A stretch of DNA of 37,916 bases. Source: an uncultured Alphaproteobacteria bacterium. GTDB taxonomy: Bacteria; Pseudomonadota; Alphaproteobacteria; RF32; CAG-239. Both the position numbers and the translations under genes were made by a program. The notes under the pieces were generated by a model. It was not told where the DNA came from and did no database searches. It saw nothing but the letters and a program-made list of their open reading frames with translations. This document shows positions 9,391 through 35,906 of this stretch, piece after piece (position 1 is the first letter of the stretch; each line of letters starts with the position of its first letter). The stretch covers positions 1-37,916 of the forward strand of contig CALXTF010000011.1 in assembly GCA_944391335.1 (NCBI GenBank), read 5' to 3'.

Positions 9391-9431
9391 AAAGTCCTGA
9401 AAATTGTGATAACAATTTTCAGGACTTTTTT
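9391..9431 (+). terminator. Perfect 17-bp terminator after the ankyrin-like gene
   Basis: Stem 9391-9407 pairs perfectly with 9412-9428 around the tetraloop GATA and is followed by T6. The 140-bp repeat begins at the last T of this tract. Confidence 0.93.
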
Positions 9432-9570
9432 ATGATTCGAACGTAACACTACCTGCGTAAGCAGGTAGATGTAGACATACCTGCCCAGCCGTTAGGTTCG
9501 CGAAGCCTTGGGGCAGGGAAAACGTAGTTCAAAACAGGTAATACCACTTGCGTTAGCTAGTGGAAGTTTA
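9431..9570 (+). mobile_element. 140-bp terminator-associated structured repeat, copy A
   Basis: The element runs from TATGATTCGAACG to AAGTTTA and has no ORF. Three hairpins can be drawn. H1 is CTACCTGC/GCAGGTAG with a GTAA loop. H2 has outer arms CCTGCCC/GGGCAGG and an inner arm AGGTT/AAGCCT with one wobble pair. H3 is CCACT/AGTGG plus GC/GC around GTTA. Its left end touches the T-tract of the preceding terminator, and its right end overlaps by four bases the start of the second 539-bp repeat. The ends are not inverted repeats and no target duplication is visible. The class is unknown; subterminal hairpins without duplication recall IS200/IS605-derived elements. Confidence 0.8.
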
Positions 9571-10104
9571 TGCCAACTTATATATGTAACTAAACAATTA
9601 TATGTGAATTAAATTATTTATAAACAATTTTAAAAGGTTACGTATATCGGCAAGTATTTTCAGGGCAACCTGATTAGAAACCGCGTGGCAAAAAATAAAA
9701 TGGACAGACATCCAATCATTCAAGTAGAGAGAGTCAATAGCAAGTGGTATCATTTTGATATCACCTTTAGAATCAATCTGAAGGCTATACTAAAGTTTAT
9801 AATCCTGCTCGCCATATCGGCTGGTGTTATTTTCGTTGGCTACTGGCTGATGAAAGGGCTGTTGCGCTTGCGGGATTGATATGGGAAGGTTTGTATTGGC
9901 TGAGCAGACAATGGCTTTGGCTCCTCGGTGCAGTAGTTTTGGCATTTCTGATTTGGGCTTTAACGAAAGTCAACTGGCGCAATATCAAAGTCGGAGCGAA
10001 TATATAGAAATATATTCTTCGGATTTTGGCTCTGATTGTGACTATCCTCTGCCTTATCTTTTGTTTCAGAAGTTGTAATAAAGAGGATAAGATCATTGAT
10101 GATG
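9567..10104 (+). repeat. 539-bp direct repeat, copy 2 (538 bp, damaged)
   Basis: This is the same segment as 5310-5848. It has lost one G of a GGGG run near 9859, which shifts the frame, and carries four substitutions, one turning a TGG codon into TAG near 10006. It ends after GATGATG at 10104, where unrelated GNAT coding sequence begins in the frame of the original protein. Confidence 0.95.
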
Positions 10105-10460
10105 AACTTTTTGCCAAAACCAAACGATTTTTGGAAGAACACTTAAACAAGGATTTGTTTATTTTTGCAGAATTTCAAGATAATATGATTGTTGCCACCT
10201 GTGGCTTATCCCTTCTTAAAACCTTACCGCAATGTTGCGATAATGGTGTTTACGGCTATGTTTGTAATGTTTTTACGCTGGAAAAATTCCGTTCTAAAGG
10301 AATACAAACCAATTTAATGGCTCATTTGATGGCTTTTGTAGAAAACAAGAAGATTAAAAGATTGCTTCTTTCTTCAGATAATCCAACAGCAATTCATATC
10401 TACCAAAAATTCGGCTTTAAGAAAGATGATTGGGGATATAAGTGGATGGCGATTTTTTGA
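9685..10460 (+). pseudogene. Chimeric pseudogene: repeat-borne membrane-protein start joined to a truncated GNAT acetyltransferase
   Basis: The 5' part is the damaged copy of the membrane-protein gene at 5428. After the frameshift it stops at 9879, and an in-frame TAG also interrupts the original frame. From 10105 the original frame continues as a GNAT domain: 'NVFTLEKFRSKGIQTNLM' (acetyl-CoA loop, here RxxGIQ), 'LLLSSDNPTAIHIYQKFGF' and 'WMAIF'. About the first 25-60 residues of a normal GNAT protein are missing, replaced by repeat sequence. A weak downstream TTG at 10026 could give a transmembrane-GNAT fusion of 144 residues, but the missing N-terminal helices make activity unlikely. Confidence 0.75.
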
Positions 10461-11008
10461 TGATTAGGGGATAAAAAGCTATCATCATATTCATCTTCTA
10501 AAACATTTTCCAAACTTCTTGATTTTATTAAATTATCTTTACATATTCTATACTGACATATCGCCAGAGAAAAGCAAGTACTTTTTAGGAAAATATTACT
10601 GGTTTTCAATGATTTAGGCTGTTTTTAGTTAAAAGTTTTGTCTTTTAGAATTTAAAATTTGTCTGAAAATACCAATTTTGTTATCTGCTTTAGGAGCATT
10701 TGATATTTCAGCTTGTGGCAATGGTTTTACATTATCAGCATTGGCATCAAATTTATCCATAAAGCAAATTAACTTTTCGTTAATATTCTAGTTTATGGGT
10801 GGACAGAAGCAAGCTCTTTTTTGTTAAAATCAATAACTTATATCTAAAAACAGCTTAATCCATAAAAATATGTTGATAAATTTGATGTGCGATATCCTAT
10901 TGAATTTTAATGGTAATTTCGGAGTGGTGGTAGCTCGGTGGTAGCTTGAGCCATAAAAAGGGGATAAAAACGCTATTTTTGAGTTGAATTTAATAGGCTA
11001 AATAAAAG
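10461..11008. other. Gene-poor stretch
   Basis: This region of about 550 bases between the GNAT pseudogene and tRNA-Thr holds no convincing gene apart from the short minus-strand ORF at 10629-10760, listed separately. A tandem 'GGTGGTAGCT' duplication lies near 10924-10946. Short minus-strand reading fragments such as 'KSRSLENVLEDEYDD' (about 10490-10540) may be remnants of lost genes. Confidence 0.4.
10629..10760 (-). CDS. Very short hypothetical protein (43 residues)
   Basis: An ATG at 10760 on the minus strand opens a frame starting MDKFDANADNVKPLPQAEI and ending '...RQILNSKRQNF'. Its composition is protein-like (few rare residues, hydrophilic), but no good ribosome-binding site precedes it and no family is recognised. 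It may be the end of a decayed gene rather than a functional small protein. Confidence 0.22.
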   Translation of the reverse strand: MDKFDANADNVKPLPQAEISNAPKADNKIGIFRQILNSKRQNF

Positions 11009-11034
11009 AAAAAGCCCTTGAAATTCAAGGGTTT
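11009..11034 (-). terminator. Terminator after tRNA-Thr
   Basis: On the minus strand, AACCCTTGAA and TTCAAGGGCTT pair and run into TTTTTCTTTT, directly downstream of the tRNA. Confidence 0.7.
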
Positions 11035-11040
11035 GGAAAC

Positions 11041-11116
11041 TGGTGCCGACACACGGACTCGAACCGCGGACCCACTGATTACAAATCAGTAGCTCTACCA
11101 ACTGAGCTATGTCGGC
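11041..11116 (-). tRNA. tRNA-Thr (anticodon UGU)
   Basis: The minus strand folds as a 76-base tRNA including an encoded CCA end. The acceptor stem is GCCGACA/TGTCGGC, the D-arm reads AGCTCAGTTGGTAGAGC, the anticodon stem ACTGA/TCAGT encloses loop TTTGTAA (anticodon TGT), and the T-arm contains GGTTCGAGTCC. It decodes ACA-type threonine codons, which are frequent in this AT-rich genome. Confidence 0.96.
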
Positions 11117-11170
11117 TTCAAAACTTTATCACTTATATACCTCCGCTTTGTGAAAGTCAATAATAATTTT

Positions 11171-11620
11171 TTATTTATTCGAAAATTGTTTATTAAATTT
11201 ATAAACAGACGCTTTTTGTTCTCTAATTTCTTTACATTCCATCGCTTTTTGTAAACTGCCGAGTTTAACTGCTTCTGTGTAAAGATTTATTTTATAATTA
11301 ATTTTTTTCATGTAATTGTCAAGTTGAAGCATTTGCCGTTCTAAATTCTTCTTTTGTTGCTTAAACATTTCCAAACGTTTAATAAGCGTACTATCTCCTT
11401 CTTTATTCCAATCAATATATTGTTTGATGTCTTTTAAAGACATGCCAACGCCTTTAAGACATTCTATAAGCTCTAACCAAATAATATCTTCATCAGAAAA
11501 AACTCTCAATCCAGAAAGGTTTTTGTGTACAAAGGGTAATAATCCTAGTTTTTCATAATAACGCAACGTGTATGTGGTCAAACCTGTTTTTTGAGCTGCT
11601 TGTCCAATAGAGTATCCCAT
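11171..11620 (-). CDS. MerR-family transcriptional regulator
   Basis: The 149-residue product begins with a canonical MerR helix-turn-helix and wing ('YSIGQAAQKTGLTTYTLRYYE', 'GLRVFSDEDI', 'GMSLKDIKQYI'; residues 2-72). A coiled-coil dimerisation helix spans about 85-125. There are no metal-binding cysteines of the MerR/CueR kind. The layout is like regulators of redox or aldehyde stress and multidrug efflux. It is transcribed away from the phosphoesterase gene at 11755, with 134 bases between; a link to the MATE gene beyond is only a guess. Confidence 0.85.
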   Translation of the reverse strand: MGYSIGQAAQKTGLTTYTLRYYEKLGLLPFVHKNLSGLRVFSDEDIIWLELIECLKGVGMSLKDIKQYIDWNKEGDSTLIKRLEMFKQQKKNLERQMLQLDNYMKKINYKINLYTEAVKLGSLQKAMECKEIREQKASVYKFNKQFSNK

Positions 11621-11754
11621 TAAATTTCTCCTTAACCTACCTTATTTATTATTAAATTCATTCCTTATTTCATCAAGATTGTTATAAAAATTGTTTATTA
11701 CTTGCCCTATGATAGATAATATGGTATTATAACATATCTTTTAGGAAAATTATA

Positions 11755-12747
11755 ATGAAATTTCTTATTTCAAAATCTGTATTTATAAAAATAAGCAAAA
11801 GCTTAATATTTAGTGGTTTGTTTTTCTTTGCCGTTCGCAGCATTGCCATAGAAGTATTTTTAATTCCTCCTGAAAATAATTATATTGTGCCTGCAGGACA
11901 AATAATGGAACCTCAAATTGAGAATTTTACATTTGCGGTTGCTAGTGATACAGGAGCTAAAAACGGGCCTATTGAACAAATCGTTAAAAATGCTCAAAAA
12001 CAAGGAAATAGTTTCCTTCTTTATTTAGGAGATTTAGTTCGTTATCGTAATATCAGCCATTTCCGTTGGATCATTTCTGAACTAGATGAAAAATTAGATT
12101 TTCCTTTCTATATGATACCAGGTAATCATGAAATTACAAATCGGTTTGGTCGAGACAATAAATATCTCTATAAAATGATTTTTGGTTCACCTTATTATTG
12201 GTTTTCTTATGGTAAAGTAATGTTTATCGGTTTAGATTCTTCCGAAGAAAAATATGATGAAAAACAGTTAAAATGGCTAGAGGATATTTTAATTAAAATA
12301 CGTCCTCATTTTAAATATTGTATTATTTATACTCATGTGCCGCCGACAAATAATATTTTATGGAAAAAGAAAATAAATATTGATCCTTCTGTAAAAAGAC
12401 TCGGTGATATTCTAAAAAACAACAAAATTGATTTACTTCTTGCCGGACATATTCATCAATATTCACAAACAACAATATGGGGAATTCCTCTGGTTACTTT
12501 AATGTCCTCAGGACAAAAAATCCGCTCGAATATTAATAAATACGGTTATGTTTCAATAGAAATAAATAAACAGGGTGTTAAATCAATTACACCTCATTAT
12601 TTGAAAGAAAATATAGATAATGAATATATTGAACTTTTAATTAGCAATATACTGGTGGATGATCGTTTTTTGGTCGTTTCTTTATCTTTATGCATCATAG
12701 GTTTTATTATGTTGATAATATCTGTTTTATTTTTGAGTGAGAGATAA
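11755..12747 (+). CDS. Membrane-anchored calcineurin-like phosphoesterase
   Basis: The 330-residue protein has an N-terminal membrane/signal segment (about residues 15-33), a metallophosphoesterase domain and a C-terminal membrane span (about 305-327). Metal-ligand motifs are in order: Asp65 in 'ASDTGAKNG' (where DxH is usual, so the His is missing), 'LYLGDLV' (Asp93), 'IPGNHEI' (123-126), 'YTHVPP' and 'LLAGHIHQY'. It therefore probably hydrolyses a phospho-mono- or diester outside the cytoplasmic membrane; the substrate is unknown. Its 3' end overlaps the convergent MATE gene by 21 bases. Confidence 0.85.
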   Translation: MKFLISKSVFIKISKSLIFSGLFFFAVRSIAIEVFLIPPENNYIVPAGQIMEPQIENFTFAVASDTGAKNGPIEQIVKNAQKQGNSFLLYLGDLVRYRNISHFRWIISELDEKLDFPFYMIPGNHEITNRFGRDNKYLYKMIFGSPYYWFSYGKVMFIGLDSSEEKYDEKQLKWLEDILIKIRPHFKYCIIYTHVPPTNNILWKKKINIDPSVKRLGDILKNNKIDLLLAGHIHQYSQTTIWGIPLVTLMSSGQKIRSNINKYGYVSIEINKQGVKSITPHYLKENIDNEYIELLISNILVDDRFLVVSLSLCIIGFIMLIISVLFLSER

Positions 12748-14100
12748 TCGATTATGCTGATATAAAGATTTAATTCGACGGATATTATAATAATATCCCA
12801 AGCTAACGACGATAGCTCCTCCAATCCAAGCAATTGGACTGGCATAACAAAGGCCAATATAACCGAATTTTGCGGCAAGATAAACAGCAGCAAATATTCT
12901 TAGACTTAGTTCAACCATACTCGAAATCATGGGAATGACCGCTTGCCCCATTCCTTGTAAACTGTTGCGAAAGATAAATATTTGTCCGAGAAAAAAATAA
13001 AATAAAATACTAATATGTAGATAAGTTTTAGCAATATCTATAACCTTGTGATGATCTTCAGAAACAAAAATAGCAATAATATTCGTGCCAAAGAAATACA
13101 TAATTAAAGCCAATAAAATACTTAAAGACAATGAAATCATTGAACATTGAAAAACACCGCGGCGAATCCGTCCAATAAGTTTAGCTCCGTAATTTTGAGC
13201 AACATATGTGGCCATGGCTACACCAAAAGAAACCATAGGTTGGGTGGCAAGTTGTTCAACGCGTAAAGCAGAAATAAACGCAGCAATGGTATCGGCGCCA
13301 AAAGTATTACAAACACTTTGAGTAATTGTAGTACTTAAAGCAATAATTGAAAACTGAATAGCCATAGGTAATGCAACAATTAAATGTTGTTTGCAAAAAT
13401 TCCAATTTAATTTCCAATCTTGTTTTCTTGGATGCAATAGAGGATATTTAAGTCCTATATACACCAGACAGCAAATGGCGGATACACTCATTGCGCAAAC
13501 TGTTCCTAAAGCAGATCCTTTTATTCCGAGTTTGAAATAATAAATAAAAATGACATTAAAAATTATGTTGAGTAAAGTTGTAAAAATAAGGAAATAAAGA
13601 GGGGTTTTGCTATCTCCCAACGCTCGCATAAAACCTGATAGTAAATTGAAAAAGATAATTATAATTACGCCATATGCGATGATACGCATAAAATTTTGGG
13701 CATCTTCCATAATTTCATCCGGAACATTCATCAACTTAAAAAGAGAATTAAGGAAAATCAACATAATAAAAGTCGCGGTTAAAGTAAAAATCGTACTAAG
13801 TATCGTTGCTGTGGTTACCGAACGACGCAACCCTCGATAATCATGGGCGCCAAAGCGTTGCGCGGTAATGACGGTTAATCCGTTTGTAAAACCGATACTA
13901 ACCATAACCAACATGAAAAATAAAGGAGTAGAGACGCCCACGGCAGCCAAAGCTTTAATACCAATCAAACGACCGACAATAATAATATCGGAAATACTGT
14001 ATAATTGTTGAAACAAATTACCGATTAATAATGGAATTGAGAATTTAATGATTAATTTAAGGGGAGTGCCCGAAGTCATATCCTGCATGATTTTCACCAC
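12727..14100 (-). CDS. MATE-family multidrug efflux transporter
   Basis: The 457-residue, very hydrophobic protein has about 12 predicted membrane spans and MATE-family features: N-terminal 'SIPLLIGNLFQQLYSISDIIIVGR', 'ALAAVGVSTPLFFMLV', 'GLTVITAQRFGA' and, in the second half, 'SFGVAMATYVAQNYGA'. MATE proteins export cationic drugs or metabolites using Na+ or H+ gradients. The 'LTVITAQRFGA...R' pattern fits the NorM/DinF-like group. The gene is convergent with the phosphoesterase and divergent from the ATPase gene at 14248. Confidence 0.92.
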   Translation of the reverse strand: MVKIMQDMTSGTPLKLIIKFSIPLLIGNLFQQLYSISDIIIVGRLIGIKALAAVGVSTPLFFMLVMVSIGFTNGLTVITAQRFGAHDYRGLRRSVTTATILSTIFTLTATFIMLIFLNSLFKLMNVPDEIMEDAQNFMRIIAYGVIIIIFFNLLSGFMRALGDSKTPLYFLIFTTLLNIIFNVIFIYYFKLGIKGSALGTVCAMSVSAICCLVYIGLKYPLLHPRKQDWKLNWNFCKQHLIVALPMAIQFSIIALSTTITQSVCNTFGADTIAAFISALRVEQLATQPMVSFGVAMATYVAQNYGAKLIGRIRRGVFQCSMISLSLSILLALIMYFFGTNIIAIFVSEDHHKVIDIAKTYLHISILFYFFLGQIFIFRNSLQGMGQAVIPMISSMVELSLRIFAAVYLAAKFGYIGLCYASPIAWIGGAIVVSLGYYYNIRRIKSLYQHNRLSLTQK

Positions 14101-14247
14101 TTTATTATACTTCGATTATGATGTAATGGGGTATAATCAATTTTAAAATATTGTCAATATGTATTTGTAATATAAAATTAATATAACATTTGTAAAAATA
14201 ATGTATATATAATATACATAATCAAAATTAAAACAGGAATATGTAAA

Positions 14248-15204
14248 ATGACATTAATAAATGATGAAGAATTTTCTGATTTATATGTTACCCCGCAAAA
14301 AGAGGCTTTTATATGGAGTAAAAAAACAGCGTATGGATTGCAGCCTGTCGTTTTTGACGATTATTCGGAATTTATAGAAGAAGTAGAAAATCGTTATGAA
14401 GGACAACCAAGTTATTTGGTCGTTTATAATGGATATAATTATCGTGTTGAAAGAACTGTTTCTCTTTACGGTGTTCAATATTGCATACGCAAAATGCCGT
14501 TATCGGTACCTGATTTTAATACTTTAGGTTTTCCACCTGTTATAGCCAAGCATTTATGTTCTTTAGGTCGTTCATCCGGTTTGTTATTAGTTTCCGGAGC
14601 GACAGGTTCGGGTAAAAGTACGACCATGGCATCTTTGCTCAAAACATTTTTAACAACGGAAGGAGGATATGCTTTTACGATTGAGAACCCTATTGAAATG
14701 CCTCTTGATGGAATTTATCGTTGTCCCAGCGGTGATTTTGGATTATGTAAACAAACTTCGGCACCTGGTGGAATGTGGGCAGAAGGGTTAAAAGCCGCTT
14801 TGCGTTCGGCTCCACGTTATATTTTGCTTGGTGAAATAAGAACTCCAGAAGTTGCTTGTCTTGCATTACAAGCGGCAATGTCCGGCCACTTAATATTTTC
14901 AACCATACATGCTAATAGTGTTCCCGATGCCGTAAACTCTTTAGTTAAATATGCCGCTTCCGGTGGAGTTAGCGAAGATATGGCTTATGAACTCGTTTCC
15001 GGAAGTTTGTTGGGTTGTATTCATCAAATATTGGTTGGTGTTCCCAAAATGTTAAAAGTAAGTAGTTTATTTACCAATCCAGATGTCACAAAACCGGATC
15101 AAGTTCGAGGGATTATTAAAAGCGGTAAGTTGAATTTTGCTACGGTTATGGAAGCTCAAAATATTAAAATGCTTAACGGAAAGCCATTATTTACAGAGAT
15201 ATAA
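14248..15204 (+). CDS. DotB/PilT-type secretion ATPase
   Basis: The 318-residue cytoplasmic protein is a GspE/PilT-superfamily hexameric ATPase. It has an N-terminal alpha/beta domain (1-95), Walker A GATGSGKST (117-125), an Asp-box-like 'TIENPIE', the Walker-B region 'YILLGEIR' with Glu196, and a His-box 'HLIFSTIHANS' (His221). Size and the ILLGEIR wording resemble PilT or the DotB/TraJ ATPases of type IVB secretion rather than full-length GspE/PilB. No other pilus or secretion gene lies in the window, so its partner complex is encoded elsewhere. Confidence 0.8.
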   Translation: MTLINDEEFSDLYVTPQKEAFIWSKKTAYGLQPVVFDDYSEFIEEVENRYEGQPSYLVVYNGYNYRVERTVSLYGVQYCIRKMPLSVPDFNTLGFPPVIAKHLCSLGRSSGLLLVSGATGSGKSTTMASLLKTFLTTEGGYAFTIENPIEMPLDGIYRCPSGDFGLCKQTSAPGGMWAEGLKAALRSAPRYILLGEIRTPEVACLALQAAMSGHLIFSTIHANSVPDAVNSLVKYAASGGVSEDMAYELVSGSLLGCIHQILVGVPKMLKVSSLFTNPDVTKPDQVRGIIKSGKLNFATVMEAQNIKMLNGKPLFTEI

Positions 15205-15244
15205 AAAAAATTATACCTTATAATAAAAAAGTAATACAAAATAA

Positions 15245-15273
15245 AAAACCTCGGTATAAGCCGAGGTTTTTTA
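15245..15273. terminator. Bidirectional terminator
   Basis: The perfect stem AAAACCTCGG/CCGAGGTTTT (15245-15254 with 15261-15270) is flanked by A and T tracts. It serves both the ATPase gene and the convergent gene at 15286. Confidence 0.88.
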
Positions 15274-15285
15274 TAGTTGTTATTG

Positions 15286-15747
15286 TTACCCGTTATTTCC
15301 TAAAAAGGAATCAACTCGATAACGAAAGTATTCGCTCAATGATGTTGGGTCAGAAATTTGATTTTGCAGATTATCCAATTTCTCATAACCAAAAGTAGAA
15401 CCATCATTGACTCTGACAAGAACAACACTAAGTGGTTGTGATAGATTATAAGTTTCGATGAAATTATATTCATCATCATCTTGGTAGTTAATTATAGAAA
15501 AAGTATATAGATTTTGATAATATTGATTATATATTTGTTCTATCAGTTCTATGGTTTGCGGACAAGCATAACAATCATCATTATTGTAAAAGACATAAAT
15601 TATGGAACGTTCATAAGTTGGATTTTCTTCTTCAAAATATTGTTCTATCGGTTCTGTTGGAGAGGATGTCCCTTCAAATTCCAGATTTTGTGCGTTTACA
15701 TTTACCGAAAACGGTATAGCCAATAAAAAACATATTAATTTTTTCAT
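15286..15747 (-). CDS. Periplasmic thioredoxin-fold protein (CxxC)
   Basis: The 153-residue product starts with a typical signal peptide (cleavage near residue 20, 'VNAQ'). After an acidic linker it has a thioredoxin-like strand 'IIYVFYNNDDCYAC' with the redox pair Cys59-Cys62, followed by a helix 'QTIELIEQIYNQY'. Later 'YNLSQPLSVVLVRVNDG' matches the cis-Pro strand of the fold. It resembles ArsF-like or nitroreductase-associated thioredoxin-like proteins. It probably handles disulfides in the periplasm; the partner is unknown. It lies 26 bases downstream of pepP on the same strand. Confidence 0.6.
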   Translation of the reverse strand: MKKLICFLLAIPFSVNVNAQNLEFEGTSSPTEPIEQYFEEENPTYERSIIYVFYNNDDCYACPQTIELIEQIYNQYYQNLYTFSIINYQDDDEYNFIETYNLSQPLSVVLVRVNDGSTFGYEKLDNLQNQISDPTSLSEYFRYRVDSFLGNNG

Positions 15748-15773
15748 ACTAAAATTCTCCGCTTAAAATTATA

Positions 15774-18346: not shown

Positions 18347-18441
18347 AAAAATGTCCTAAAAATGATAATCAATTGTTTACTAAATAAAGTTTATAGTATA
18401 TAAAAGTTAAAAATTATGCAAATTTTTAAAGAGAAAAGCAG

Positions 18442-19215: not shown

Positions 19216-19261
19216 AATTTATCAAAAGATATAAACAATATATGTTATAGGAGAATTAATA

Positions 19262-20073: not shown

Positions 20074-20087
20074 TAAAAGAGGAAAAA

Positions 20088-25520: not shown

Positions 25521-25972
25521 TGATTTATTTTTCCTCTCCTTCTTCAAAACCACGTTCTAGACGTCCTAAACGTCGTAATGCTGATATCAATATCACTAAT
25601 TTAATGGATGTGATGATGGTGCTTTTAGTCGTTTTTATGGTGGCGGCTCCTTTAATGACCTCCGGAATAGCTCTGAATCTTCCTAAAGTCGGTGGTCAAA
25701 ATTTAACCGGCAAAGAGACTTCTCTTAATATTAGTGTCAGTAGTGAGGGCGATTATTATATTGGTAAAGAGGAAATTCCTGCTGATAAAATTATTGCTAA
25801 AGTCATGGCCGTTAGAAACGCTAATCCAGATATAAATGTCGTCATTTCCGGTGATACAGAGGCACAGTATGGAAGAGTTATCGGCCTAATGGCTATGCTT
25901 AAAAATGCCGGTTTTGAAAGAGTCGGGTTAAAAACGGAACCTTCACCACAACAAGTCATTGGAAAGAAATAA
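25520..25972 (+). CDS. tolR: Tol-Pal system protein TolR
   Basis: TolR pairs with TolQ and carries the essential protonatable Asp in its single membrane helix. The 150-residue product has the basic N-terminus 'RRPKRRNADINITNLMDVMMVLLVVFMVAAPL', with the conserved Asp in 'TNLMDVMMVLL', and a periplasmic ExbD/TolR domain ('VVISGDTEAQYGRVIGLMAML'). The Pro/Lys/Arg-rich start is longer than in E. coli. It directly precedes tolA. Confidence 0.94.
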   Translation: MIYFSSPSSKPRSRRPKRRNADINITNLMDVMMVLLVVFMVAAPLMTSGIALNLPKVGGQNLTGKETSLNISVSSEGDYYIGKEEIPADKIIAKVMAVRNANPDINVVISGDTEAQYGRVIGLMAMLKNAGFERVGLKTEPSPQQVIGKK

Positions 25973-25978
25973 AAGTAA

Positions 25979-26926: not shown

Positions 26927-26942
26927 AAAAAAGGACAATGTA

Positions 26943-28426: not shown

Positions 28427-28429
28427 GAT

Positions 28430-30076
28430 TTATGACTTATTGTAATAACGAGAAAATTTTTGTATAATATCTACATGAACTTGTTTATTTTCCTTTAGTT
28501 TTTCGCGAATTGCAATAATTTCGGAAGGTTCTGGCAAAGGCATATATGCAAAAATTTTCTTTTTTTGCTCTTTATCGCCCATTTTAATGTATTTATTCAA
28601 GCCTGATTGAATTTTAGGAGATAGTTTGGGAATAATTGTTTTTATGGCGGAACAACTAATTTCCGCGGCAAAAATCATATCGTCTCTTTTATGTCCGAAC
28701 TTTAATTTATTTTCTGGTTCAAGAGATTGATGCATAGAGCGTCCGATAACATATACAAAATTTCCCGAATAGTTATATAATCGATTACATTCATTAAGTT
28801 TGAACTTGAGAGCTTGATTAGGCAGCATATTTTTAAGACGATCGCTTCCAATAATCTGCTCAAAGAAATCGAGTGCGGAACCAATAGGATTTTTGTGATG
28901 AATAGAAATTATTTGTTTTTCGGCTGTTTCAGCTTTACATTCTTTGTTCATTTTATATTCTTTAGAAACACTTTCAAAAGGTTTATTGTTTACCGGATCA
29001 GGAAAGGCGAGAGCGCCGATATTATTGATGCCGTTTTTAACCATAGGTAAAATATATTGATAGTCAAATGTTTTAATAAAATCGTTATAATTAAAATTAT
29101 TGCAAAAAATAGAATGTTTATTTGCTTCGAATTTTTCAGATAAAACACCAGCTAATGTTTTAAAATATAATTCTTCACATTTATTTGTATAAGTTTGTTT
29201 TCGAATATTTTCTATATCAGAGGTATCGGATTTTTCTTGTGTGATACCAAGAGCTTTATCAATAATTTTAGGGGCATCTTCACCAAATTGTTTTTGCATA
29301 AGTTTACAAAAACTATCGTAATTACTACCAATATTTCCCCCTTGAGCAAGATTTCGGCCTTCCATTAACATTGTCCCGTACATTTTAAGGAACTCAGGTT
29401 TTGGGTATGCGTCGAACATACTTCTTAAATTTTTGCGAAAATCCTCATCCTTTTTTTTAACCATAAAAGTATAATCTTTGGTTTGGTTAGCATCAAAAAC
29501 GTATTCTTCGATATCTGGTCGGAGACTTTCGATTGCTGTATTTATAGTATTTTGTGAATTATAGACGGCAAAATCGGAAGCTAACCTTTTTTTTAGTAAA
29601 GCTTGTTTAGTTTCAATAATTGTTTTGAATTTAAGAGCGTCGTCTTCATTAAGTGATCCGCCACAAACGGCGGCAGAGATATCATCGGCATTTTTAATTC
29701 CTATTTCATATAAGAGTGTAGCGATAACTTTAGTGCCGTTTATTTTGCAGTTATTTAATTGCCCACCTGCCAAGCCGAACCATCCCAGTTGTTTATAGAT
29801 ATTAAGATTGCGATTTCTTCGAATTCGTTCACGTAAAAGATCAATATTTTTTATTTCATCCAATTCATGTTCAGCCACAATATTAAAAGCATGTTCGTTA
29901 TTATCTTCAAAAGTTTTTTTATTAAGAGAATTGATAGTATTATACAGATGATTTAGATCTTCTGGTTTAAGGTTATCGGCATCTGTATTACAAATATCGA
30001 GCATAGCAAGAGTTGCCAATATTCGAGTTTCGAGATTTATTTGTTCATTTTTAGATTTTGTTTTGATGGCGGCCAT
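28430..30076 (-). CDS. Large cytosolic protein, unknown; HNH-like His cluster
   Basis: I do not recognise the family. I place the start at the ATG of MAAIKTKSKNEQ (30076), which has a GGGAG seven to eleven bases upstream; an in-frame TTG at 30091 would include that site in the coding region. The 548-residue protein is mostly helical, hydrophilic, and has no signal or membrane span. Near residue 410, 'IHHKNPIGSALDFF', followed about 40 residues later by 'NRLYNYSGNFVYVIGRSMHQSLE', looks like an HNH-type nuclease core (HH, N, H). Gut alphaproteobacteria carry many such lineage-specific proteins. A nuclease role is speculative. Confidence 0.6.
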   Translation of the reverse strand: MAAIKTKSKNEQINLETRILATLAMLDICNTDADNLKPEDLNHLYNTINSLNKKTFEDNNEHAFNIVAEHELDEIKNIDLLRERIRRNRNLNIYKQLGWFGLAGGQLNNCKINGTKVIATLLYEIGIKNADDISAAVCGGSLNEDDALKFKTIIETKQALLKKRLASDFAVYNSQNTINTAIESLRPDIEEYVFDANQTKDYTFMVKKKDEDFRKNLRSMFDAYPKPEFLKMYGTMLMEGRNLAQGGNIGSNYDSFCKLMQKQFGEDAPKIIDKALGITQEKSDTSDIENIRKQTYTNKCEELYFKTLAGVLSEKFEANKHSIFCNNFNYNDFIKTFDYQYILPMVKNGINNIGALAFPDPVNNKPFESVSKEYKMNKECKAETAEKQIISIHHKNPIGSALDFFEQIIGSDRLKNMLPNQALKFKLNECNRLYNYSGNFVYVIGRSMHQSLEPENKLKFGHKRDDMIFAAEISCSAIKTIIPKLSPKIQSGLNKYIKMGDKEQKKKIFAYMPLPEPSEIIAIREKLKENKQVHVDIIQKFSRYYNKS

Positions 30077-30220
30077 TATATATACTCCCAACTATGTTTT
30101 TTATAGAATAAAGCAATATTATTTTTATGTCAATAAAATATACAAAATAATGTTGACATTAAAATAATTTTAAATTATATACCAATTAACACAATATTTA
30201 TCATTATTAAAATTATTTGT

Positions 30221-30589
30221 ATGAATTTTAGATTTTTTAATTCGTTTACTTTTCTGCGAAGGTGTTTCAATCTTCCCAGAAATAAAAAGTTGCGCTGGGG
30301 CATTGTTAAAGAAGTTTCGACATCTAAAGGAGAGGATCTTCGGCTTTGTGTTCTTATAGAAAACACAGATAAGTATATTGACATTGCTCAAAGAAGAATT
30401 TTTTCTAAGGTTGATAGTGGCCTTGTAAAGCGTATAGCTCTTCCGGCCAATCGTTATTGCGGTAAGACGGAATATGTTTATTTTACCAACAATGGCTGGT
30501 ATATCCATTTACCAAAAACTTTTATTATGGATATATATAGCAATTCGTGGTGGCAAGACGGGAAAACTGAGAAGGAGCTATTGATGTAA
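30221..30589 (+). CDS. Small basic hypothetical protein
   Basis: The 122-residue product is basic at the N-terminus ('FLRRCFNLPRNKKLRWG') and contains several beta-strand-like stretches ('LRLCVLIENTDKYIDIAQRR', 'TEYVYFTNNGWYIHLPKTF'). It has no signal peptide and no recognisable motif. It is a single-gene unit followed within five bases by a strong terminator, and the 140-bp repeat (copy B) begins in that terminator's T-tract. Confidence 0.55.
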   Translation: MNFRFFNSFTFLRRCFNLPRNKKLRWGIVKEVSTSKGEDLRLCVLIENTDKYIDIAQRRIFSKVDSGLVKRIALPANRYCGKTEYVYFTNNGWYIHLPKTFIMDIYSNSWWQDGKTEKELLM

Positions 30590-30594
30590 AAAGG

Positions 30595-30629
30595 ACCTGC
30601 ACATTTTAAAAATGTGCAGGTTCTTTTTT
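30595..30629 (+). terminator. Terminator after the small basic protein gene
   Basis: Stem ACCTGCACATTT/AAATGTGCAGGT (30595-30606 with 30610-30621) with a three-base loop is followed by TTC and T6. Copy B of the 140-bp repeat starts at the last T. Confidence 0.92.
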
Positions 30630-30759
30630 ATTATTCGAACGTAACACTACCTGCGAAAAAAGGTAGATGTAGACATACCGTTAGGCTTGCGAGGCCTTGG
30701 GGCAGGGCAAACGTAGTTCAAAACAGGTAATACTACTTGCCTTAGCTAGTGGAAGTTTA
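30629..30759 (+). mobile_element. Terminator-associated structured repeat, copy B (131 bp)
   Basis: Same element as 9431-9570, with a nine-base deletion after 'GACATACC' that removes one outer arm of hairpin H2. Two base changes in the paired regions (AAGCCT to AGGCCT in H2; CCACT to CTACT in H3) keep pairing as G-T wobbles. The flank is ATTA instead of ATGA. It forms an inverted pair with copy C. Confidence 0.8.
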
Positions 30760-30972
30760 GCAACTACCCGCGAAAAAAGTTTGTTATTAAACACAATATC
30801 CAAAAAACAATCCTTTATGCCTCCTAAAACCTAATATCACTTAAGTGTGAATGTTTGTTTTGAACATAAAGAATTGAAAGACTAGTGAAGTATAACGGGA
30901 AATTTAGACAAATTTTTGTTGGCTTAAATTTGCTTAGTGATATTATATTATTACATAACCAAAGGTAAAAAC

Positions 30973-32017
30973 ATGGATGAAAATATTAAAGATATAATTC
31001 AAATTTATTTATATAATAATAACTTTCGTGGTTATGATTCTCATGATCAGATGAGAGAAATATTATATAATCGACCGGACTTAGCACCAAGACATACTAA
31101 CAACAGTTCAAGAATTCTTAAAGTCTAATAAAAATGATAGTGATTCTTATGGGATTGCATATGAAACATTAGGAAAGATTGTAGAAATAAAACCGGAATT
31201 GATTGATTCTGCGATAAAAGGTGTTTTGGATGCAAAATCACAGACAAAAGAAACGTTATCTTTCTTGGCAAAGTGTATGAAAAAGCGTCAATCATATGAT
31301 ATATCAGGTATTTCAGACGAACAACGCAAGTTGTTGTTAGCGGCATACAATATGCGTTATTCACTTCAAGATGAGATATATTACTGCTATGATAGATTGG
31401 GTATAGACAAGATTTCGCAAATGAGATTTTCCGCACAACAAAGATGTATGAATGTAATGATGGGTCAGTTAGGTAAGGAACAGAAACTTCCTGCTGAAGA
31501 TGTTAATCAATATCGTAAAGATGCAGATAATAACGAAATGTATCAATCTAATGGAGATTGGTTGCTTCCTGCAAGTTTTAATGCAGCGGAAATTTTCGGT
31601 TGTTATTTTCCATCTTATATTAAAAGTACGGAAAAGCATTTGTCGACGCATGATGCGGTTTATTGGTTGCCCGAGGATTTACCGGCAAGCAAGAGAGAAA
31701 GTTTTCGTTTTTTTGTGCAAAGAAATTTGATTTATGATGATACTCACGGACAGAGAAAATCTCGTTCTTTAGCAGAAATGGAGGTTATATCTAAAAACTG
31801 GAAGTATTTGAAACTTGAAGACGAAAAGCTAAAATATAAAGACATTTTGGCAATCTGCCAAAGCCATAAATATGCTGAACAAGAATATGATAAATTTGCA
31901 ACTGAAGCCGCTAAATGGGGTGTAAGTGAAAGTGAATATAAACTTCCACTAGCTAACGCAAGTGGTATTACCTGTTTTGAACTACGTTCGCCCTGCCCAA
32001 AGGCTTCGCAAGCCTAA
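30973..32017 (+). pseudogene. Frameshifted hypothetical gene, 3' end replaced by repeat copy C
   Basis: A frame from ATG 30973 (MDENIKDIIQIYLYNNNFRG...) ends at 31128, while a second frame, open from about 31086, reads 'ILTTVQEFLKSNKNDSDSYG' and continues to 32017. Joining them near 31085-31100 gives one helical protein of about 345 residues of unknown family. From 31939 the frame runs into repeat copy C, so the last 26 residues ('LPLANASGITCFELRS...') are encoded by the repeat and the native C-terminus is lost. It has a frameshift and a truncation, so it is almost certainly a pseudogene. No known domain is recognised. Confidence 0.7.
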
Positions 32018-32078
32018 CGGCTGGGCAGGTATGTCTACATCTACCTTTTTTCGCAGGTAGTGTTACGTTCGAATCATA
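31939..32078 (-). mobile_element. Terminator-associated structured repeat, copy C (140 bp, inverted)
   Basis: This is a full-length copy in minus orientation. Its TATGATTCGAACG end lies at 32078 and abuts the minus-strand T-tract of the terminator at 32078-32113; its AAGTTTA end lies at 31939 inside a coding frame. H2 has the perfect inner arm AGGCTT/AAGCCT. With copy B it encloses 1,179 bases as inverted repeats. Confidence 0.8.
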
Positions 32079-32115
32079 AAAAACACCATCGGTATTAGCC
32101 AATGGTGTTTTTTTT
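32078..32115. terminator. Bidirectional terminator after the CoA-transferase operon
   Basis: AAAAAACACCAT (32078-32089) pairs with ATGGTGTTTTTT (32102-32113). On the minus strand it is downstream of the CoA-transferase genes. Confidence 0.85.
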
Positions 32116-32210
32116 AATCCTAAACGTTTTATTTTGATAAGTATGTTAATCATTATAAAAATTAAAGAAAAATTAGAACTTTAAAATTCTGAGAAGATGT
32201 TGGTATAGAA

Positions 32211-32873
32211 TTATATAATTTTTTGATTTAATGTTTCATCAATAATTAAATCAGCTTCAGTTGATTGAAGTACTTCTTCTAATGAAAAAAGAGGATTGAT
32301 TTCTTTTAAAAGCAAACCTTTGGGTGTTGGTTTAATAACTGCTCTTTCGGTAACAATTAAATCTACTTCTCCGGCGGCGGTAAGGGGTAAATTGCATTTT
32401 TTTACGATTCGTGGTTTTCCTTTATTTGTATGTTCCATGGCAATAATCACCTTTTTTGCCCCGACGACCAAATCCATAGCTCCGCCCATACCGGGAACAA
32501 AGGCACCTGGGATCATCCAATTGGCAAGATTACCTTTTTCGTCAACTTGTAAAGCACCTAAAACAGTAGCATTGACGTGTCCTCCGCGGATCATGGTGAA
32601 AGCCATTACCGAATCAAAAAAAACAGCTCCCGGTCGAATTGTTACGGGAACACCGCCGGCATTAGTAATTTTAGGTTTGTTTCCAGCGTGATTATCATGT
32701 GGACCGACGCCTAACAGTCCATTTTCGGATTGAAAAATAACGTGTATGTTATGTGGAATATAGTTGGCAACTTCAGTTGGCAAGCCGATTCCCAATGTAA
32801 TAACATCCCCTTGGGAAAGTTCTTTTGCAACACGACGGGCAATGGTTTCACGACATTGTTCTTTAGAAAGCAT
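32211..32873 (-). CDS. CoA-transferase subunit B (3-oxoacid/acetoacetate type)
   Basis: The 220-residue beta subunit of a class I CoA-transferase moves CoA between short acyl groups such as succinyl- or acetyl-CoA and acetoacetate. It has the catalytic glutamate motif 'SENGLLG', followed by 'GHVNATVLGALQVDEKGNLANW' and 'GMGGAMDLV', which are typical of ScoB/AtoA. It is paired with subunit A immediately upstream (six bases). Whether the acceptor is acetoacetate or butyrate cannot be read from sequence. Confidence 0.93.
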   Translation of the reverse strand: MLSKEQCRETIARRVAKELSQGDVITLGIGLPTEVANYIPHNIHVIFQSENGLLGVGPHDNHAGNKPKITNAGGVPVTIRPGAVFFDSVMAFTMIRGGHVNATVLGALQVDEKGNLANWMIPGAFVPGMGGAMDLVVGAKKVIIAMEHTNKGKPRIVKKCNLPLTAAGEVDLIVTERAVIKPTPKGLLLKEINPLFSLEEVLQSTEADLIIDETLNQKII

Positions 32874-32879
32874 ATTTCC

Positions 32880-33521
32880 TCACTTGACCAAATAGTCGAT
32901 AAAAATTCCTGGAATTGTAATTTCAGCAGGATTAAGGGGTTCATCACAAATTTCATCAGGTTCTGCAATTACCACATCTGCGGCTGTTGCCATGACTTGA
33001 TTAAAGTTACGGGTTGTACCGTCAAGGAATAAATTTCCATACGGATCGGCTTTAGTTGCATATATAATTGCAACATTAGCTTTAAGAGGTTTTTCAAGTA
33101 AATATTTACGTCCTTCAACATCAATAATTGCTTTTCCTTTTTCAACGACCGTATTAACGCCGGTAGGGGTTAAAAAACCACCTAAACCAGCCCCCGCGCA
33201 GCGAATTCTTTCAGCTAAAGTTCCAAGAGGCACCAGTTCAACTTCTAATTCGCCGGCATGCATTTGTATTCCGGTTTCAGGATTTGTTCCGATATGACCA
33301 ACAATAGCTTTTTTGACAAGTTTATTTGTGATTAATTTACCACGGTCGTATTCTGGAAAAGATGTGTCATTAGCAATAAGAGTAAGATTCCCGATTTTAT
33401 TGTTTATAATTTCATCAATGACTTTTTCAGGACTTCCACAGCGCAAAAATCCGCCAATCATAATTGTGTCGCCGTCATGAATTAGTTTTCCAGCTTCTAA
33501 AATTGAGATAAATTTTTTCAT
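32880..33521 (-). CDS. CoA-transferase subunit A (3-oxoacid/acetoacetate type)
   Basis: The 213-residue alpha subunit partners the gene downstream. It has 'DGDTIMIGGFLRCGSPEKVIDEI' (CoA-binding loop of the GGF type), 'GHIGTNPETGIQMHAGELEVELVPLGTLAERIRCAGAGLGGFLTPTG' pieces and 'ATKADPYGNLFLDGTTRNFN', as in ScoA/AtoD. The two genes form a compact operon that ends at the terminator at 32078-32115. Together they suggest ketone-body or short-chain fatty-acid metabolism. Confidence 0.93.
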   Translation of the reverse strand: MKKFISILEAGKLIHDGDTIMIGGFLRCGSPEKVIDEIINNKIGNLTLIANDTSFPEYDRGKLITNKLVKKAIVGHIGTNPETGIQMHAGELEVELVPLGTLAERIRCAGAGLGGFLTPTGVNTVVEKGKAIIDVEGRKYLLEKPLKANVAIIYATKADPYGNLFLDGTTRNFNQVMATAADVVIAEPDEICDEPLNPAEITIPGIFIDYLVK

Positions 33522-33636
33522 ATGTTTTAGTCTTTTAAATTAAAATGATAATTAAATATAACGTAATTTTATTTAAAGTCACCTTTTTTGTTTTGTTGTT
33601 AAATAGGGTATTAACAAGAAAGTTCATTATATAAAA

Positions 33637-34320
33637 TTAATGATAGCTTTTTGTAAGTGCAATAATTTTCCCAAGAGTGGTTAATTTTTCTGGTTTGGCA
33701 ATACTAATAGGCGGATAAAGAGGATTGTCCGAAATAATCAAAGCAGAATGGTTAAATTTGTCTAATTGAAGTCGTTTAATAAAAATTTCTCCTTTCATTG
33801 CAAAGATGTATAGTCCATCTTCTTCAGGAACTTTAATAGAAAAATCCACCCAAACGAAATCACCATCATAAATTGTAGGTTGCATAGCATCACCGTGAGC
33901 AATCAACATTTTAATATCAAGAGGATTTGAATTTGTGAGCATATTAAATATCATTTCACTAATCATTTGTTTTCCTATAATTTGAAAAGTTATTTTTTGC
34001 TCAAAAGTTTCATTTATTTGTGGAATAATAATATCAATTTCAGCCATGCGATTTTCTGGTTTTGAGAGAGGTTTTTTCCCTTCAACCAAGGGAATGTCTT
34101 TAGTAAAACCGGAGTTATATTTTGTTAATTCTTCAAGGTCTAGATTAAAAAATTTGGCAGCAGGAAAAACTTTATTGACAGGGAAATCACGCTTACCGCA
34201 TAGAAGTTCAGACACACGAGTTTTTTGCCATTGAAGAGCCTCAGCAACATCTGTTTGAGTGATGTTGTTTTTCATCATGTATTCTTTAAGCCAAAACCAT
34301 TTATTACCTTTAGTGTTCAT
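33637..34320 (-). CDS. Phage-type repressor, XRE helix-turn-helix plus S24-like domain lacking the nucleophile Ser
   Basis: I choose the ATG at 34320 (MNTKGNK...) because GGAG lies six bases upstream; the ATG at 34332 would include it. The 227-residue protein has an XRE-type helix-turn-helix (about residues 10-65, 'ITQTDVAEALQWQKTRVSELLCG') and a C-terminal S24/LexA-like fold. The S24 motif GDSMxPTI reads GDAMQPTI, with Ala145 in place of the nucleophile serine, while the Lys of the dyad (Lys182 in 'GEIFIKRL') is present. Self-cleavage is therefore not expected. It is divergent from the gene at 34445 across a palindrome-rich operator region, as in a phage immunity switch. Confidence 0.88.
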   Translation of the reverse strand: MNTKGNKWFWLKEYMMKNNITQTDVAEALQWQKTRVSELLCGKRDFPVNKVFPAAKFFNLDLEELTKYNSGFTKDIPLVEGKKPLSKPENRMAEIDIIIPQINETFEQKITFQIIGKQMISEMIFNMLTNSNPLDIKMLIAHGDAMQPTIYDGDFVWVDFSIKVPEEDGLYIFAMKGEIFIKRLQLDKFNHSALIISDNPLYPPISIAKPEKLTTLGKIIALTKSYH

Positions 34321-34341
34321 TTTCTGCTCCATTATTTTTAC

Positions 34342-34420
34342 ATTACAGATTATGTAATAAAAAAAAAAGTTTGTAAATTACAAAAAAAGTATTGACTTTC
34401 TTACATTAAGTGTATATTAA
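34342..34420. promoter_or_regulatory. Divergent operator/promoter region of the repressor
   Basis: Three palindromes share a TTACA/TGTAA half-site: ATTACAGATTATGTAAT (34342-34358), TTGTAAATTACAA (34371-34383) and TACATTAAGTGTA (34402-34414). A rightward promoter TTGACT (34392-34397) pairs with TATTAA (34415-34420, 17-base spacer) or TATATT (34413-34418, 15-base spacer). The third palindrome lies between these boxes, so bound repressor would block it. Confidence 0.65.
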
Positions 34421-34444
34421 TTAGAAATTAAAGAAAGGAAATCA

Positions 34445-34936
34445 ATGAAAGAAGAAAACTACATTAATAAAAAAGAATGCATACGCAGAGGCTATATAAG
34501 GAAAAATGGCTATATCTATAAAATGTCGCTTTTAGATAAATATGCACAAAAAGGTTGGCTTGAATATGGAAATCCACGTTTTTCGAAAGATGATCGCCTT
34601 CGTGCCGCCAGAAGATTCCAAAGCGACTATGAAATGTCGCATTTTGCTTCTGTGGGAATATCCGGAACGCATGAAAAAATTGATTTACAAACTCAAAAAC
34701 CAATAGATATTGAAGCTATTTGTAAAGCAAGAGAAAATTATTTTGCGGCAATTAAGCAGATACCAGAAGAATTTTTGCCGATAGTAAGAGCTGTTTGCTT
34801 AGAAAATAGGGAACTAAAAATTGACAGAAAAGAGCATAATAGACAAAGATCTGAGATGGTTTATGCACAAAGAAGAGATTTATGTAGAGGTTTAGATCGT
34901 TTAATTTCCTTTTATTGGTCGATTAAGTTTGAATAA
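34445..34936 (+). CDS. Phage-region protein (DUF6456-like), first gene opposite the repressor
   Basis: The 163-residue basic protein has an N-terminal winged-helix-like part ('YIYKMSLLDKYAQKGWLEYG', 'DDRLRAARRFQSDYE') and a C-terminal helical part ('REDLCRGLDRLISFYW'-like: 'RRDLCRGLDRLISFYW') that resembles DUF6456-type proteins of alphaproteobacterial prophages. Its position directly across the operator from the repressor suggests an early or regulatory role. It has a strong AAGGAAAT ribosome-binding site. Confidence 0.6.
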   Translation: MKEENYINKKECIRRGYIRKNGYIYKMSLLDKYAQKGWLEYGNPRFSKDDRLRAARRFQSDYEMSHFASVGISGTHEKIDLQTQKPIDIEAICKARENYFAAIKQIPEEFLPIVRAVCLENRELKIDRKEHNRQRSEMVYAQRRDLCRGLDRLISFYWSIKFE

Positions 34937-35048
34937 ATTCGCTTTGTCTAAAAAAAGATGTTATTATTTGTAATAAAATATTATTAAAAATAATGGTTGT
35001 GTATTAGATTACCTGTGATTTTATTTTTAGATGTAAAGGACTACAGTA

Positions 35049-35363
35049 ATGAATATTGAAAAATATAAACATCCAAATATTTCTGATAAATATCAGCAAC
35101 CTGAACAATTGCGAAGAGATTTTCGATGTTTGCTTGATATGGTTGAACATAAGAAAATTAAGACACCAGCAGCTATTCAAACATATAATCTGTTATGTGG
35201 AATAGAAGCATTACTCAATCGTTATGAAACAGTTAGTAAAGAAACCTTACTTATCATTGAAGCATTTGATAACTCACAAACAAGCGCAAAATATTTACAA
35301 CATTTGCATCAAGATGCTATGCATTGTGACGTTTTTAATCCTAAGATGATTATTGATGTATAA
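35049..35363 (+). CDS. Small hypothetical protein of the phage region
   Basis: The 104-residue soluble, helical protein ('QLRRDFRCLLDMVEHKKIKTPAAIQTYNLL...') belongs to no family I recognise. It has an AAAGGA ribosome-binding site and is followed by a terminator. It may be in the same transcript as the gene at 34445 (112-base gap). Confidence 0.55.
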   Translation: MNIEKYKHPNISDKYQQPEQLRRDFRCLLDMVEHKKIKTPAAIQTYNLLCGIEALLNRYETVSKETLLIIEAFDNSQTSAKYLQHLHQDAMHCDVFNPKMIIDV

Positions 35364-35393
35364 ATAAAATTTTTTTATTGATATTAACGTGAG

Positions 35394-35420
35394 CAGGCAA
35401 TAGTTATTGCCTGTTTTTTT
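35394..35420 (+). terminator. Terminator after the small phage-region gene
   Basis: CAGGCAATA (35394-35402) pairs with TATTGCCTG (35405-35413) and runs into T7. Confidence 0.88.
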
Positions 35421-35573
35421 ACTTTTCAATTGTATGATCCTAAAATAAAGAGAATATAAAGTTGGATAAAAACAAGTAGTAAGATTTAGAATAATAACTG
35501 GGAGATTTTAAAAAAATATCTTATTGTTTTTACTTGATAAAAATGAGTTATCCACAGATTGTGAAAAAAGAAC

Positions 35574-35602
35574 TTGCATTTTTAAACATATTGTGCTATG
35601 AA
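35574..35602 (+). promoter_or_regulatory. Extended -10 promoter in a gene-free stretch
   Basis: TTGCAT (35574-35579), a 17-base spacer and TATGAA (35597-35602), preceded by TGC (extended -10), give a good sigma70-type promoter. The first protein gene downstream is beyond two terminators. Confidence 0.5.
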
Positions 35603-35607
35603 TTTTC

Positions 35608-35736
35608 CCATAATAGGCGTCTTGTAACTATAAGAGTGAAGATGCCTCTTTTACTTTTAAAATACAAATATATTTGTGTTTAAAATTTCATAAATTAAAT
35701 ATTGGCGGTTGCTGGCAGTCAGCAGCCGTTTTTTTT
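35608..35736 (+). ncRNA. Candidate small RNA of about 130 nt
   Basis: The region 35364-35948 has no convincing protein gene. It holds the promoter at 35574-35602 and, 110 bases on, a strong terminator, which together define a short transcript. Inside are the perfect palindrome ACAAATATATTTGT (35664-35677) and a 13-codon ORF (35642-35683, MPLLLLKYKYICV) with a weak ribosome-binding site. It could be a phage-borne regulatory RNA, a leader peptide, or an untranslated remnant. Confidence 0.3.
35706..35736 (+). terminator. Terminator of the candidate small RNA
   Basis: CGGTTGCTG (35706-35714) pairs with CAGCAGCCG (35720-35728, one G-T) around GCAGT and is followed by T8. Confidence 0.88.
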
Positions 35737-35741
35737 GAGGA

Positions 35742-35767
35742 AAATTCCGATAAACACGGAATTTTTT
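35742..35767 (+). terminator. Second, tandem terminator
   Basis: AAATTCCG (35742-35749) pairs with CGGAATTT (35757-35764) and is followed by T. Copy D of the 140-bp repeat begins in its T-tract. Confidence 0.75.
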
Positions 35768-35906
35768 ATGATTCGAACGTAACACTACCTGTGAAAAAAG
35801 GTAGATGAGGACATACCAGCCCAGCCGTTAGGCTTGCGAAGTCTTGGGGCAGGGAAAACGTAGTTCAAAACAGGTAATACCACTTGCGTTAGCTAGTGGT
35901 AGTTTA
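35767..35906 (+). mobile_element. Terminator-associated structured repeat, copy D (140 bp)
   Basis: This copy has the same borders as copy A (TATGATTCGAACG to AGTTTA). A C-to-T change in the inner arm of H2 (AAGCCT to AAGTCT) leaves a G-T pair. It stands 43 bases upstream of the terminase small-subunit gene and so lies within the phage-derived region. Confidence 0.8.

Follow-up and report, generated by a model that had tools for sequence, protein, structure and literature searches.

A 138-bp miniature relative of IS200 found mostly in the T-tracts of rho-independent terminators

Introduction

In the insertion sequences of the IS200/IS605 family, the site of cleavage pairs with a guide word located 5' of the foot of a hairpin (PMC5934647, PMC6006769), and for IS608 the target is described as being recognised through base pairs formed with the left guide (PMC5934647). 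IS200C of Escherichia coli has a reported length of 710 bp, and IS200 has been regarded as not mobile (PMC12594629). The present account concerns a 138-bp repeat, four copies of which lie in a 37,916-nucleotide stretch of DNA, hereafter the window, from an uncultured Alphaproteobacteria bacterium (assembly GCA_944391335.1, contig CALXTF010000011.1, positions 1 to 37,916). A preliminary annotation made from the letters of the window without database searches, here called the sequence-only reading, had proposed that the repeat is a non-autonomous element associated with terminators. The analysis presented below suggests, with a probability of roughly 0.8, that it is a miniature derivative of an IS200-type element that inserts directly 3' of the word TTTAT, mostly in the T-tracts of rho-independent terminators, and that this choice of target is common to several IS200 lineages.

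Among described elements, the PATEs (palindrome-associated transposable elements) of Haloquadratum resemble the repeat in being non-coding, in lacking terminal inverted repeats and in bearing near-terminal palindromes in common with IS605-type transposons (PMC3119063). They differ in being haloarchaeal and of IS605 type, and the available portion of their description makes no mention of terminator targeting (PMC3119063). IS200C shares with the family of the repeat a single transposase (TnpA) of the Y1 HUH class, subterminal hairpins and insertion, without duplication, on the 3' side of a short T-rich word, and with the repeat itself a location in terminator T-tracts. Unlike the repeat, which is 138 bp long and has no tnpA, IS200C is autonomous, spans 711 bp between the borders used here and has different ends, and its left flanks end in TTTTT, TTGTT, TTATT, TTCTT and similar words where the repeat uses TTTAT. 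IS608 and ISEfa4 have TnpA proteins homologous to that of the repeat's family, and IS608 has a pairing of guide and cleavage site (PMC5934647) of the kind predicted for the repeat.

The repeat and its borders

All four copies were confirmed, at 87-100% identity to copy 1 over the aligned stretch. The sequence-only reading was thus right about their number and their likeness of about 90%, while the exact borders it had assigned proved to be off by a few bases. With the start set from aligned left ends and the end from a conserved AAGTTTAT, alignment with relatives gives an element of 138 bp that begins at the G of GATTCGAACG and terminates with AAGTTTAT. Copies 1 and 4 occupy 9434..9571 and 35770..35907 of the forward strand at full length, as does the inverted copy 3 on the reverse strand (31938..32075), whereas copy 2 (30632..30760, forward) is internally shortened to 129 bp and has T, not G, as its first base.

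The T6AT that had been taken as the beginning of each copy is instead host DNA. For each copy it is the T-tract of a terminator of its own, with the target TTTAT as its last five letters. The respective terminators lie at 9393..9433 (forward; -21.1 kcal/mol, z -7.8), 30588..30631 (forward; -25.0 kcal/mol, z -9.1), 32076..32113 (reverse; -19.7 kcal/mol, z -6.7) and 35740..35769 (forward; -8.8 kcal/mol, z -4.5), and each hairpin was matched by 0 of 200 dinucleotide shuffles. The four stems are all different, as had been claimed, and it is therefore the terminator structure, not a shared flank or a stem conserved as part of the element, with which the repeat is associated.

The absence of terminal inverted repeats, also reported earlier, holds, and the DNA fold of copy 1 (9393-9571) predicts a subterminal hairpin at either end, each with a TAA-containing word on its 5' side. 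The left-end hairpin (9446..9472, forward) has a guide-like GTAA immediately 5', and the right-end hairpin (9544..9563, forward) is preceded by the candidate guide TAAT and followed by the cleavage site TTTAT at 9567-9571, the distance from stem to cut being 8 nt. Among 69 matched right ends, a TAA-type guide accompanies TTTAT in 62 and TGAT accompanies TTCAT in six, with one off-pattern, so that the right-end guide and the cleavage site appear to covary in a manner that fits the pairing rule of the family. The occurrence of TTTAT at both ends of a copy is read not as a target duplication but as host DNA on the left and the end of the element on the right, as in IS200/IS605 elements.

In agreement with the earlier statement that the repeat has no open reading frame (ORF), none of at least 80 aa in the ORF list of the window lies wholly inside a copy. 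An ORF called at 31199-32017 extends into copy 3, which may supply the end of this frame or may mark a truncated gene.

Family membership

The first ~56 bp of the repeat are also found in three longer loci (L008, L016 and L009), which then run into different DNA. In L008, the shared left end is followed by an ORF of 146 aa, a hairpin and a right end in TTTCAT, and the element-strand ORF between these ends is tnpA; in L009, tnpA is disrupted. The L008 protein matches the Pfam family Y1_Tnp (PF01797) at 1e-32 and the NCBIfam model transpos_IS200 (IS200/IS605 family transposase) at 125.7 bits against a cut-off of 55, and the closest solved structures are the TnpA proteins of ISHp608 (8.3e-21) and IS608 (9.4e-21). 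An assignment to the transposases associated with repetitive extragenic palindromes (TnpA-REP, or RAYT) was rejected, as the REP_Tyr_transpos model scores only 25.1 bits with a cut-off of 80.

Because tnpA is present in a longer relative that has the same left end, the repeat is placed in the IS200/IS605 family, which the sequence-only reading had listed among possible relatives with the remark that none was matched. The repeat has that left end together with a right end of the same build, which makes it a derivative of internal-deletion type, whether of such an element or of one related to it. Judged from these sequence comparisons, then, it is a non-autonomous derivative of an IS200-type element, of the kind called a miniature inverted-repeat transposable element (MITE) or PATE; that it is non-autonomous had already been suggested in the sequence-only reading.

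The leader upstream of tnpA in L008 contains CCATATCT...AAGGAGATATGG, a stretch that could enclose the ribosome-binding site and the start codon of this gene in a paired structure. Translation-repressing stem-loops are known for Salmonella IS200 (PMC2515195).

Preference for terminator hairpins

The association with terminators was evaluated on copies drawn from a scan of named genome contigs that listed at least 100 stretches, chosen for the left-end word regardless of what flanks it. From 131 distinct copies, L085 was left out for a left flank shorter than 45 nt (a hairpin is visible there), leaving 130. Classed from the left part, 91 of these belong to the MITE type and 39 to the tnpA-carrying type, many of the latter cut by contig ends. 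Also left out were copies in which the left-end match starts after query position 8 or is absent, such as L040, L015 and a degenerate second copy in L006, and orthologous insertions may have been counted twice (L007 and L137 have common flanks). A site was scored by the most stable single hairpin with its 3' edge 0-12 nt ahead of the insertion point, with a threshold of -8 kcal/mol or better, and 1418 unoccupied intergenic TTTAT sites from the same sequences served as controls.

The left flank ends in TTTAT at 125 of the 130 copies, the others ending in TTTGT (two), TTCAT, TCTAT and TTTTT. A hairpin at threshold stands directly 5' of 110 of the 130 element sites, compared with 200 of the 1418 controls, which extends to many copies the placement that the sequence-only reading had described for four and had proposed to check. 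Both types behave in this way (76/91 for the MITE type, 34/39 for the tnpA-carrying type), and removal of tandem copies leaves 105/124. With tandems removed, the hairpin is found at 72 of 81 sites no more than 150 bp downstream of a gene (controls 59/306, p 1.4e-31) and at 28 of 31 between convergent genes (controls 45/185).

This enrichment is not a matter of T content. Where the 7 nt ahead of a TTTAT contain 0-2 T, a hairpin is present at 21/29 element sites and 67/605 controls; with 3-4 T, the figures are 48/55 and 77/604, and with 5-7 T, 38/41 and 56/209. Logistic coefficients are 1.13 per 5 kcal/mol and 0.11 per T. The hairpin thus counts beyond the T-tract alone.

Six of the 130 copies lie directly behind the right end of another copy, five after hairpin, linker and TTTAT and one after the hairpin, linker and TTCAT of the tnpA-carrying type, from which it follows that a right end is itself a valid target. 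The layout of a right end is that of a terminator, comprising a stem, a short linker and a T-rich word. Head-to-tail tandems of MITE and insertion-sequence copies were observed at L144, L165, L166, L156 and L146, each exactly at the preceding right end.

Two further traits were considered as signatures of the target and dropped. The distance from stem to cut has its mode at 8-9 nt at terminators with an element, and falls within 7-10 nt at 84/104 element sites and 121/200 unoccupied hairpin sites; the mode is the same at unoccupied hairpin-TTTAT sites, and a fixed spacing was not retained. An A-tract 5' of the stem, thought of as a mimic of the guide, averages 5.7 A in 8 nt as opposed to 4.3 for all hairpin controls, and amounts to a mere trend once terminators downstream of genes are taken for comparison.

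Other IS200 lineages

The same bacterial family has a second IS200 type, with a left end in GTAACAAGAAAACTACCGGC and variants, and all 23 of its scored copies have a hairpin. These are 23 of 24 alpha-proteobacterial loci (L190-L213), L204 being a partial match without a left border and L133 an extra copy outside the count. Its left end forms the last 72 bases of the window (37845..37916, forward; GTAACAAGAAAACTACCGGCTAGGCCGGTAG...), where it is cut by the contig end and lies in the T-tract of a host terminator at 37819..37844 (forward; hairpin -9.5 kcal/mol; L193 is the same place). Contig C14 of this genome starts inside this element, and on contig C5 the element's match likewise stops early. 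A search of this genome (99.89% complete) for Y1_Tnp gave no match, although a repeat at a contig break could conceal one; gaps in the assembly probably contain IS200 copies that carry tnpA.

In E. coli, 12 copies of IS200C were taken from 40 listed among 2714 matching records, the choice being made before the flanks were seen. Eleven have a hairpin at threshold and the twelfth one of -7.7 kcal/mol, and by eye all 12 flanks are a T-tract behind a hairpin. Eleven of the sites have an annotated upstream gene, and in all 11 the nearest such gene is oriented towards the insertion (kup, pyk, icd, fdnI, bhsA, phoR, exbD, plaP, carB, hrpA and one hypothetical); the twelfth stretch has none. Joined flanks covering at least 80% of the query were recovered in 5260 of 5426 genomes for kup-rbsD and in 4879 of 5426 for pyk-lpxM, and at one empty site for each the flanks rejoin base by base with no added bases; IS200C therefore inserts without target duplication at these two sites. 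For the MITE, no clean empty site was found among the listed local BLAST matches of the flanks and in one search of 57 genomes.

Unlike the repeat, ISEfa4 of Enterococcus carries tnpB adjoining tnpA, and its seven distinct sites, all ending in TTTAAC, have no hairpin (0/7; L226 repeats an earlier flank and was excluded). Two other Y1 types, L047 and L059, display strong hairpins of -17.3 and -26.3 kcal/mol at tentative borders. The scored set did not extend to further Y1 types, including L048, L050 and L051, and the counts do not cover an Enterococcus tnpA-only element (L219 and L220), whose single flank is too little to fix its left border.

Distribution

The genome holds 15 copies of the repeat, 14 places found by search and the shortened copy at 30632, and a hairpin at threshold is present at 14 of the 15; at the remaining one (L024), a weak hairpin farther upstream is followed by a long T-rich run. 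Matches occur in nine of 57 genomes searched, all nine from the same bacterial family, and 80 listed stretches from the wider scan are nearly all from metagenome-assembled genomes deposited as uncultured Alphaproteobacteria or proteobacteria, with one Gastranaerophilus-labelled exception. A diverged copy (L109) is found outside the proteobacteria in record DVJT01000189.1, labelled Candidatus Avigastranaerophilus, and is either a horizontal transfer or a binning error.

The MITE query had no match in a plasmid collection, and the left-end pattern had none in viral_contigs. In a phage collection, two unannotated faecal records match the MITE at 75-78%, and one of these copies (L215, MT836276.1, 3800-4400; 75% identical) follows TTTTTAT, with no obvious strong hairpin by inspection. 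In the same-genus genome G006 (L035, L036, L038, L039, L040), several MITE copies adjoin a further short repeat that contains a hairpin like AAAACCCCGAGTTTACTCGGGGC and then GAATGCC, and which is probably another IS200-type miniature element.

Mechanism and alternative explanations

The repeat retains what a Y1 HUH TnpA requires, namely a hairpin with a guide on its 5' side at the left end, another such hairpin and guide at the right end, and TTTAT as the site of cleavage. As it has no tnpA, we infer that a related TnpA, absent from this genome or unassembled in it, mobilises the repeat in trans. Insertion takes place directly 3' of TTTAT, mostly where this word belongs to the T-tract of a rho-independent terminator. 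The same choice is made by the tnpA-carrying type, by the other IS200 type in this bacterial family and by IS200C of E. coli, though not by every Y1 element. In this scheme TnpA, a hairpin-binding enzyme, would dock the stem of the target as though it were its own right end, a stem-loop with a T-rich pentanucleotide, and the terminator would act as a mimic of that end; the spacing of 8 nt in the MITE right end is compatible with the idea. The target strand may become accessible when the terminator is transcribed or when the DNA is replicated, and the structure could plausibly be sensed as single-stranded DNA or as RNA. That TnpA itself recognises the hairpin is the account we lean towards by a small degree. 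Held more tentatively, and with slightly less than even confidence, is the broader proposition that the TnpA of several IS200 lineages reads structure, a stem-loop followed at ~8 nt by a T-rich word in the architecture of its own right end, such that terminators may be ready-made targets across bacteria and IS200, long held to be near-immobile, may be a safe-site transposon at transcript ends.

A number of observations weigh against so simple a scheme. Twenty of the 130 copies fall below the hairpin threshold, 17 of them with hairpins weaker than -6 kcal/mol, and a few hairpin-less copies adjoin or fall within called ORFs, for which reason the hairpin is a strong preference and no strict requirement. 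Stem-to-cut spacing shows no overall difference between occupied and unoccupied hairpin-TTTAT sites (Kolmogorov-Smirnov p 0.42), and the A-tract 5' of the stem reaches only p 0.09 against unoccupied terminators downstream of genes. Unlike the repeat, IS608 captures its target in crystals as 6-nt oligonucleotides without a hairpin (PMC5934647), and a target hairpin would therefore be an added feature. Two Y1 types with shared left ends and tentative borders have no hairpins, at 0/3 sites for one (L041, L057, L064; G046) and 0/2 for the other (L042, L063; G052); both come from other families of the same class, and no TnpB over the cut-off was found in their genomes. One further copy, L058, with a stop in tnpA and a right end like that of L008, apparently lies inside a transposase gene with the nearest hairpin 12 nt away. 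Since those two Y1 types lack hairpins without a TnpB match, terminator targeting is a trait of some IS200 lineages and not of tnpA-only elements as such. Finally, at symmetric sites of the form A-tract, hairpin, T-tract, there is a bias in the strand relative to the gene side (48:10, as against 43:30 for controls, p 0.004), a hint that transcription may matter as well.

This last bias is what would be anticipated if capture were coupled to transcription, with TnpA taking the non-template strand in the bubble of a polymerase paused in the U-tract and the hairpin serving only to cause the pause. At hairpin sites the called left gene points in at 84 and away at 15, compared with 112 and 72 for control hairpins, and the upstream genes of IS200C, all reading into their sites, agree. 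Such an account fits poorly with the copies that lie behind the right end of another copy, where the sole T-tract is TTTAT, and with hairpin sites that have hardly any T-tract besides TTTAT; as a full explanation we consider it rather unlikely, although docking of the hairpin and transcription-coupled capture can act together. A purely selective origin, in which insertion takes place at any TTTAT and only copies just downstream of genes survive, at terminators by chance, would yield the rarity of insertions called within an ORF (3/130). The enrichment nevertheless persists when only sites downstream of genes, or between convergent genes, are compared, which argues against selection alone, and the sites of ISEfa4 have no hairpins; this origin is judged improbable.

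That terminators are merely the main intergenic T-tracts, and thus the main suppliers of a T-rich target such as TTTAT, is very improbable given the enrichment at equal T content in all three strata and the small coefficient per T, which contradict T-richness as a sufficient cause. Group IIC introns take terminator hairpins as their targets and insert there, and the sequence-only reading had named them, together with HEARO/IscB elements, as possible relatives. They are, unlike the repeat, retroelements with a ribozyme and a reverse transcriptase, neither of which was found here. Rfam gave no support for either group, yielding only tRNA at gathering score over the whole window and, for copy 1 with E up to 10, matches confined to the flanking terminator. 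With a Y1 transposase as the element-strand product of the longer relative L008, a retroelement or RNA-guided element that recognises terminators is an explanation we hardly entertain, and the reading of the repeat as an IS200-type derivative with a preference for terminators is retained.

Significance

As a MITE derived from an IS200-type element the repeat is new but of an ordinary kind, and its interest lies in a rule of target choice that IS200 itself follows too and that seems unreported in the literature searched. No statement of terminator targeting by IS200 was encountered in that literature, the coverage of which was partial, so that an earlier mention is possible. Several published observations touch upon the rule. 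IS200 is among the families described as over-represented between convergent genes (PMC9208149). It has a terminator stem-loop of its own, and in Salmonella two small RNAs originate immediately upstream of its copies (PMC2515195), which fits with terminated 3' ends at these places. In Typhimurium, 27 of 32 IS200 locations are given as intergenic, the genic ones being in dacB (three times), icdA (twice), rnd, accA and brnQ, and one genome study deemed the pseudogenes arising from stop codons or IS200 insertions to be mostly random (PMC3853940).

Terminators represent a safe landing place at the ends of genes, and a rule of this kind would help to explain why copies are mostly intergenic and would predict the sites of new ones. 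It would also link single-strand transposition to transcript ends, and would provide a natural inserter for safe sites alongside the TnpA of IS608, which has already been engineered for targeting (PMC5934647). How a transposase sees a terminator becomes testable with a protein of 146 aa.

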